IMG/VR virus record: IMGVR_UViG_3300017751_000068
Coordinates: 1-37,951 of that record
Strand: one strand, 5' to 3'
Source of the DNA: a virus
Length of the DNA: 37,951 bases
This document shows, one piece after another, positions 5,738-37,042 of the stretch (the first letter of the stretch is position 1; each line of letters begins with the position of its first letter). The position numbers were made by a program, and so were the translations under genes. A model generated the notes under the pieces. That model had not been told where the DNA came from and did no database searches. It worked only from the letters and a program-made list of their open reading frames with translations.

Positions 5738-6025
5738 ATGGCAAAATATATTACATTCGATACTGCAAGTGACGGAAATGTTCACCTTGCAACAGACGGC
5801 ATTCTTTATGCAGAAACTACAAGTTCAACTGCTGGAACAATATTTTTGAAAGGCGGAAGTCACAAATTTACTGTTACTGGAACAGGTTTAACTTCAGGTT
5901 TCGCAGCAAATGTAAACGCAGCTTTAGTTGATGCAGCGCAAACATCTTGGACTAATGCAGCAATTCCTGTAAGTACATCAGGAGGGCTTTTAGTATTTAC
6001 TAGCGTAGCTGTAGCTACTATTTAA
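5738..6025 (+). CDS. Small beta-rich virion protein, candidate capsid decoration protein
   Basis: A 95-aa protein rich in Thr, Ser, Ala and Gly with alternating hydrophobic residues, predicted to be almost all beta strand; there is no signal peptide, no membrane helix and no catalytic motif. It has its own TATCTTTG promoter upstream and a terminator starting 26 bp after its stop, making it a single-gene transcript beside the capsid gene. Small, separately and probably strongly expressed beta proteins next to the capsid gene are often head decoration proteins, and small proteins of this look recur in marine phage contigs. The decoration role is inferred; a tail tube or other minor virion role is possible. 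Confidence 0.7.
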   Translation: MAKYITFDTASDGNVHLATDGILYAETTSSTAGTIFLKGGSHKFTVTGTGLTSGFAANVNAALVDAAQTSWTNAAIPVSTSGGLLVFTSVAVATI

Positions 6026-35785: not shown

Positions 35786-36189
35786 TTCTTGTTGGTTAAA
35801 TCATTTAATTTTTTGGACACCAATTCATGCTTAGTATTAAGCGTATTTCTAAGGGTCTTGTGTCCTTCTAAGACCTTCATAGATTTACTTCCGTTCATCT
35901 CATCACGAACCTTTAACTCAAGTCGCTCAAGATTATACTGATATTTTTTTAGTGATATGGTATACACGCCTACGAGCCATCCTTCCTTGAAATAGTCGTA
36001 CTGCTCCTCGGTAAGTTCTCTATAGAAGTTCATTCCTGAAGTCTCTATGCGAGTTGACTGGCTATCCCTAATTATTTTTACTCCCCTATACATATAAGAT
36101 TCAGAGGGAAAGGAGTTGATGCACTTACTGGAGTCGTGAGACTTAGCTTGTTGAAAGACCATATCTAAGTTTTCTTTAGTCAACAACAC
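35782..36189 (-). CDS. Hypothetical early protein
   Basis: A 135-aa protein without a recognised domain. The N-terminal half holds short strands (YMYRGVKIIRDSQSTRIET); the second half (about 65-135) is strongly helical and Lys/Glu/Leu-rich (NLERLELKVRDEMNG). It is coupled to the next gene by an ATGA overlap and overlaps the previous gene by 14 bp, so it belongs to the recombination operon. Confidence 0.72.
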   Translation of the reverse strand: MLLTKENLDMVFQQAKSHDSSKCINSFPSESYMYRGVKIIRDSQSTRIETSGMNFYRELTEEQYDYFKEGWLVGVYTISLKKYQYNLERLELKVRDEMNGSKSMKVLEGHKTLRNTLNTKHELVSKKLNDLTNKK

Positions 36190-36472
36190 TAAGCTTGTTA
36201 ATTACCTCTTGCAAGTCTGTGTCCTCCTCCAGTTGTTTCTCTATAGCTGAAACGCCATAGGTTATTGGAGACCTCTGAAGTTGAGAACCATTGTTTCTCA
36301 TGTACTGCATAATCATGGCAATAGTTAAGCCTCTTTTGGTGCATAAGTAAAACAAGGTCTGCCTTGCTAGTACTATCTCTCCGTTCTGAGTCTTTGAGAA
36401 GAACTCTTCTCTGCTCAGACCAGTATGCTTTAAGATGTTATCAATAAATTGATTGAATATATGTTCTTTCAT
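36176..36472 (-). CDS. DnaA C-terminal-like helix-turn-helix protein
   Basis: A 98-aa protein whose residues 20-85 recall domain IV of DnaA, the DNA-binding helix-turn-helix: IVLARQTLFYLCTKRGLT (33-50; compare the R-x-x-A-x-Y-L pattern), IAMIMQYMRNNG as the next helix, and SPITYGVSAIEKQL in place of the DnaA signature (D-H-[ST]-T-V-x-x-x-x-x-I). The DHTT signature itself is only partly kept, so it may bind a different site. No ATPase domain is present. Such stand-alone proteins could mark the phage origin or block host DnaA sites. Second gene of the leftward operon, ATGA-coupled to the 46-aa gene. Confidence 0.55.
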   Translation of the reverse strand: MKEHIFNQFIDNILKHTGLSREEFFSKTQNGEIVLARQTLFYLCTKRGLTIAMIMQYMRNNGSQLQRSPITYGVSAIEKQLEEDTDLQEVINKLSVVD

Positions 36473-36609
36473 TTTTTGAGTGTAACGTTAAGATTCTTTT
36501 GAGTTTTGGTTCTTATTTCTTGAATAAGATTAAAGGCTTGAACATAGCCTTGACTTTGGTAGTCATCGTCAAGGAATTTATCAAACGTAGGGTTGTTGGT
36601 TAATTGCAT
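36469..36609 (-). CDS. Small leader gene of the leftward operon (46 aa)
   Basis: ATG at 36609 opens a 46-codon frame whose TGA overlaps the next gene's ATG (ATGA at 36469-36472), a strong sign that it is translated. The product (MQLTNNPTFDKFLDDDYQSQ, then helical and basic) is unknown. It has the AT-rich leader AAATCTAAT…AAATCAAATG and a -7 box TAAATTTG upstream, so it is the first gene of the whole leftward replication/recombination transcript. Confidence 0.7.
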   Translation of the reverse strand: MQLTNNPTFDKFLDDDYQSQGYVQAFNLIQEIRTKTQKNLNVTLKK

Positions 36610-36634: not shown

Positions 36635-36642
36635 CAAATTTA
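36635..36642 (-). promoter_or_regulatory. Candidate leftward -7 box (TAAATTTG)
   Basis: On the minus strand TAAATTTG fits TAnnTTTG and lies 25 bp before the ATG at 36609. No clear -33 TTG is at the usual distance, so it may need an activator; the tandem palindromes lie 64-104 bp further upstream. Confidence 0.5.
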
Positions 36643-36704: not shown

Positions 36705-36739
36705 TTCCCCTAATGGGAAGTTTTGTCCCCTAATGGGAA
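36705..36739. promoter_or_regulatory. Tandem palindromic operator-like sites
   Basis: TCCCCTAATGGGAA occurs twice, at 36706-36719 and 36726-36739, exactly 20 bp apart (about two DNA turns). Each copy is an inverted repeat, TCCC-CTAAT-GGGA; the first extends to TTCCC/GGGAA from 36705. GC-rich sites in an A/T-rich divergent intergenic region, equal helical phase, and overlap of the second copy with the expected -33 region of the rightward promoter (-7 at 36752) point to a dimeric regulator binding cooperatively. Confidence 0.7.
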
Positions 36740-36751
36740 AGTAAATTTTTT

Positions 36752-36759
36752 TACCTTTG
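36752..36759 (+). promoter_or_regulatory. Bacteroidota-type -7 promoter box (TACCTTTG), rightward
   Basis: TACCTTTG fits TAnnTTTG and lies only 4 bp before the ATG at 36764, so its transcript would be leaderless or nearly so. The -33 position (about 36729-36732) is covered by the second palindromic site, consistent with repression or activation there. Confidence 0.6.
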
Positions 36760-36763
36760 CTTT

Positions 36764-37012
36764 ATGGCAGATACTTTCTTAAAAAATAACCTATCAATCG
36801 TTATCTCTTTTTTAGTTGCAGTCTTTACTGCTGGAGGTGTATACTCTGAGTTTATGAGCATAAAGAATGAGCTTACTATGGTACACGAAAGACTAGACAA
36901 AAAGATTATTGTTATTAATGCTTTAGAGAATCGAATCTTTGATATTGAAAAGCAAATTGAATACGAGCGTGGCTTCATAGAGGCCACAAAAAAAAGGGAA
37001 CCTCATCCCTGA
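36764..37012 (+). CDS. Small membrane-anchored coiled-coil protein (spanin/holin-like build)
   Basis: An 82-aa protein, the only rightward gene in this part of the window. Residues 9-27 (NLSIVISFLVAVFTAGGVY) are a single membrane helix close to the N-terminus; residues 32-75 form a charged helix with heptad-like spacing (LTMVHERLDKKIIVINALEN), ending KKREPHP. This N-anchor plus coiled-coil plan is that of small phage lysis proteins such as inner-membrane spanins, and of some accessory membrane proteins; sequence alone does not decide. It has its own promoter and the tandem palindrome in front, so it is controlled apart from its leftward neighbours. Its stop codon lies inside the terminator hairpin of the opposing genes. 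Confidence 0.72.
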   Translation: MADTFLKNNLSIVISFLVAVFTAGGVYSEFMSIKNELTMVHERLDKKIIVINALENRIFDIEKQIEYERGFIEATKKREPHP

Positions 37013-37022
37013 GAATTCCCTT
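36988..37022 (-). terminator. Rho-independent terminator (leftward), overlapping the 3' end of the 82-aa gene
   Basis: Stem AAGGGAA (36994-37000) with TTCCCTT (37016-37022), extended inside by CTCA/TGAG (37002-37005 and 37010-37013) around a TCCC loop. On the minus strand it is followed by eight T (36995-36988). It ends the chain of small genes that starts beyond the right edge. The plus side has only TTCTTC, so rightward termination here would be weaker. Confidence 0.85.
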
Positions 37023-37042
37023 CTTCAATCAAACAAACAAAA

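Follow-up and report, generated by a model that had tools for sequence, protein, structure and literature searches.

What does a pair of identical palindromes between two divergent phage promoters control, and which protein would read it? The window, that is, the whole 37,951-bp viral stretch analysed here, carries such a pair in the gap between a leftward 46-aa ORF (start 36609) and the rightward gene g82 (start 36764). The original prediction had described two identical palindromic sites 20 bp apart in a 154-bp, A/T-rich divergent gap, and coordinates and counts confirmed this description; the gap is 73% A+T. The features of the region are as follows.

36176..36472, minus strand: gene for HTH98, a 98-aa DnaA domain IV-like protein
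36469..36609, minus strand: 46-aa ORF that opens the leftward operon and is conserved in relatives
36635..36642, minus strand: -7 box TAAATTTG of the predicted leftward replication-operon promoter, 33 nt before the start of the 46-aa ORF
36705..36719, no strand: distal dyad TTCCC-CTAAT-GGGAA with 5-bp arms, spanning -59 to -45 relative to the predicted g82 start
36725..36739, no strand: proximal dyad GTCCC-CTAAT-GGGAA with 4-bp perfect arms, at -39 to -25, a span that includes the -33 position
36752..36759, plus strand: -7 box TACCTTTG of the predicted rightward (g82) promoter, matching the TAnnTTTG consensus
36764..37012, plus strand: g82, 82 aa, with a single transmembrane segment and a coiled coil, both read from sequence
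36990..37026, minus strand: hairpin and U-run, a predicted terminator overlapping the 3' end of g82

Exact copies of TCCCCTAATGGGAA are present at 36706-36719 and 36726-36739, their starts 20 bp apart and 6 bp lying between them, and the 37,951-bp IMG/VR record holds no further copies elsewhere. Written as half-sites, the whole 35-bp array is TTCCC-CTAAT-GGGAA-GTTTT-GTCCC-CTAAT-GGGAA, with four GGGAA/TTCCC-type half-sites starting at 36705, 36715, 36725 and 36735, a pitch of 10 bp. Dyads are not scattered within the genes of the window: even the looser form TCCCN5GGGA is found only twice, both times in the array, against an expectation of 0.13, and none of 100 shuffles contained two. The chance expectation for a dyad pair at any spacing from 13 to 40 bp is ∼1e-5 per window of equal composition.

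The position of the array relative to g82 was derived from the -7 box. The Bacteroidota box TAnnTTTG sits at -12 to -5 of the transcription start in Flavobacterium psychrophilum (PMC9723704), and with TACCTTTG placed at -12 to -5 transcription is predicted to begin on the A of the g82 ATG (36764), so that the g82 mRNA would be leaderless; leaderless mRNAs make up only 5.5% in F. psychrophilum (PMC9723704). Given this box, the proximal dyad spans -39 to -25, which bears out the earlier claim that the second copy overlaps the -33 region expected for the rightward promoter. The expected -33 position falls within this dyad, and no TTG was seen there by eye. In the window the array consists of two helically phased dyads, the proximal one overlapping the predicted promoter.

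Repressor operators of the lambda OR/OL type are tandem dyads of ∼15-17 bp, about two turns apart, that overlap a promoter, and the array is likewise made of tandem dyads about two turns apart over a promoter. It differs in that its two copies are identical in core and that the gene it would control is solo and lysis-like. Our best reading, to which we assign a probability of about 0.6, is that the array serves as a cooperative two-dyad operator through which a dimeric regulator controls g82 transcription, and together with the g82 promoter it looks like an ordinary genetic switch. Each 15-bp dyad would space two recognition helices by one helical turn, and the 20-bp spacing would put two dimers on the same DNA face, where cooperative binding is possible. 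The proximal dimer would then sit where RNA polymerase makes its -33 contact. Repression by simple occlusion, released at the right time, is slightly favoured over class-II-type activation. Protein binding to the array, its cooperativity and the sign of regulation are what we infer here.

The gene downstream of the array is a candidate lysis gene. A total of 98 g82 homologues were confirmed in viral contigs. In most of six other contigs that were inspected, they lie among small transmembrane proteins and M15-type or other endolysin-like genes, and two homologues with endolysin-like neighbours weakly match the Rz-like spanin family phrog_739 (4.6e-6 and 0.0038). The family search with g82 itself gave no match, and its role in lysis is one that we infer from sequence and context. 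The array, promoter and g82 form a solo unit that is antisense to its neighbours and that relatives either have or lack as a block. Such a unit, with its own promoter, resembles a phage moron; unlike a moron, it ends at a terminator that belongs to the neighbouring cluster, and its family is lysis-associated rather than a known conversion gene. The minus-strand hairpin at 36990-37026 (-18.3 kcal/mol; 0 of 200 shuffles were equally stable) would stop a leftward transcript arriving from the gene cluster beyond g82.

Relatives of the same group were collected as ten contigs via the ERF protein (61-81% identical) and two more via g82. These are named G001 to G012 and correspond to records L013, L024, L007, L034, L027, L028, L030, L032, L033, L036, L181 and L182, respectively. 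The array has two copies in the window and G001 and three in G002, all exactly 20 bp apart, while G004 retains a single damaged copy with its left arm ruined, so that copy number varies by whole 20-bp units. G001, G002 and G003 each hold a single array per genome. Conservation of the pair is therefore partial: its sequence and spacing are kept in G001 and G002, while the site is degenerate in G004, and G011 and G012 carry g82 and its -7 box with no array. The array is thus not needed for expression in all members. As a separate observation, the promoter region of G004 (L034:4937-5010) has repeated ACGTGTT/ACGTGCTT motifs in place of the window's array.

Between the window and G001, the array is identical at 36 of 37 positions, the g82 codons at shared residues at 66% and the adjacent gap at 27%. 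If the neutral rate is taken as 0.66, identity at 36 or more of 37 positions would arise by chance with a probability of ∼3e-6, a calculation that is void under recent recombination; the identity of the array could stem from such recombination and not from selection. A helicase-based search of 80 wider relatives found the array only in the G002 contig.

The array and g82 are jointly missing at this locus in G005-G010. Neither is present in G005-G008 or G010, and in G009, which has no array, a g82 that is 56% identical is located elsewhere in the genome. When G001 is compared with G010, the array-promoter-g82 unit appears as an insert flanked by the leftward promoter and the terminator, and G010 displays the empty site. 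This distribution bears on the alternative that the array regulates the leftward replication operon, alone or together with the g82 promoter, and has no specific tie to g82. In the window and in G003, the first leftward gene does begin ∼90 bp downstream of the array, and in G003 the array stands without g82, upstream of HTH98 and directly upstream of the replication operon. In the window, however, roughly 80-100 bp separate the array from the predicted leftward start, whereas it lies directly on the g82 promoter. Most relatives also lack it at the operon; one of these is G010, which has nearly the same HTH98 and leftward promoter as G001. We therefore consider leftward control unlikely.

The G003 arrangement would also suit replication-origin iterons, bound by an initiator beside the leftward replication operon. 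Like phage origin iterons, the array consists of tandem palindromic units, here of 20 bp, in an A/T-rich gap upstream of replication genes. Yet two or three units are few, and cumulative GC skew in the window peaks at 29.5 kb, away from the array. Moreover, G005-G010 share the replication operon without any such repeat there, so that the array, in contrast to iterons, is not conserved with the replication module. An origin function is, on this evidence, quite improbable, and control of g82 is retained as the preferred reading.

Which protein would bind the operator was addressed by asking what co-varies with it. The original prediction had put forward the DnaA-C-like 98-aa HTH protein or a host factor, and the comparison of relatives corrects the first of these candidates, as HTH98 does not co-vary with the site. 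The HTH98 proteins of G010 (no site) and G001 (site present) share 97% identity; G005 and G007 lack the site though their HTH98 proteins are 78% and 74% identical to that of the window; and G001 and G002, which carry the identical site, have HTH98 proteins that share just 40% and 38% identity with the window's. On this evidence, HTH98 is very unlikely to be the specific binder of the array. For the second candidate, no host factor was identified.

In contrast to the lambda type, no divergent repressor gene was recognised. An HTH_3 (CI/Cro family, PF01381) repressor is absent from 16 related records, several of them fragments, and none was found among the scanned window proteins. The phage records compared contain no regulator gene that co-segregates with the array. 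The only family that tracks it, in part, is a 95-aa protein encoded at 5738-6025 of the window, which was rejected as the regulator: it looks structural and not like a DNA binder, is also present in G004 and G009 and is missing from G003. This protein is 91-93% identical in the two relatives with the g82 array, where a flanking gene is 67-68% identical. A ParB-like gene of G002 (L310:16414-17115, minus strand) is inserted between ERF and the homologue of a 135-aa gene. Its product was also rejected as the binder, being confined to G002, where its gene lies ∼1 kb from the three-copy array. A phage-encoded regulator outside the records is possible, since the records may be incomplete.

The lack of a co-segregating regulator, together with the sporadic occurrence of the array, would be expected if the array were the target of a foreign repressor, encoded by the host or a resident prophage, that would either keep the incoming gene silent or be titrated by the phage. 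Against this, a search of 257 Gb of bacterial and archaeal genomes with the strict AT-core 20-bp pattern, which counts pairs and not single dyads, returned two Paenibacillus loci only. We regard a foreign repressor as decidedly improbable.

Unrelated phages often carry TTCCCN5GGGAA pairs, including spacing classes of 28 bp and 22-23 bp. The half-site equals that of the array; the spacing of the array is 20 bp, and in viral contigs of ≤35% G+C every pair in the scan had this spacing. The contigs with 20-bp pairs are G001, G002, G003, L010, L012 and L019 (arrays in L002 and L003 were set aside as they are located inside an ORF). An unbiased tandem-dyad scan of ∼1.3 Mb gave repeated counts for the 20-bp array geometry only. 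Cultured phages and plasmids yielded no convincing match to the array, and no paper on the motif as spelled was found in the literature. The 28-bp class (L067-L139) comprises many G+C-rich phage contigs with exact 28-bp pairs and appears to be a separate, widespread operator-like element.

In L010, L012 and L019, the array occurs once per contig, within a lengthy stretch of non-coding DNA next to the terminase gene and upstream of the gene adjoining the terminase. L019 also encodes a helicase and a primase distantly related to those of the window. The stretch in L010 (L010:1980-2520) is ∼590 bp of non-coding DNA after the terminase and has repeats of the kinds TTTGCGTC, CAGTACCGATT and TTCCCTTTTTGGGAACTTAA (x3). 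Such a setting might suggest an RNA-level or incidental feature, such as hairpins or a partition or packaging site, and the minus strand folds somewhat better than shuffles (z -2.5). However, both predicted promoters in the window point away from the array, which lies upstream of each, and a terminator shields it, and the ParB-like gene is confined to G002; an explanation of this kind is highly improbable. A more speculative extension of the operator reading, which we consider doubtful, is that a novel regulator of Bacteroidota phages may read phased GGGAA/TTCCC half-sites, one per turn, in single arrays at differing genes, namely a lysis-type gene, the replication operon and the gene beside the terminase.

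Little is known of how uncultured marine Bacteroidota phages regulate their genes, and the compact, conserved 35-bp candidate operator on a lysis-type gene offers a ready bait for its regulator and an easily tested switch. The window comes from a marine Bacteroidota phage. It has Bacteroidota-type promoters, and most annotated phages carrying a related primase are phages of Flavobacterium, Maribacter, Polaribacter and Cellulophaga, the closest being a podovirus genome from Manatee Spring. A 264-aa protein encoded at 17031-17825 matches the C-terminal domain of the crAss-like phage muzzle protein (PF25729, 2.6e-16), which links the virion of the window phage to the crAss-like podoviruses.
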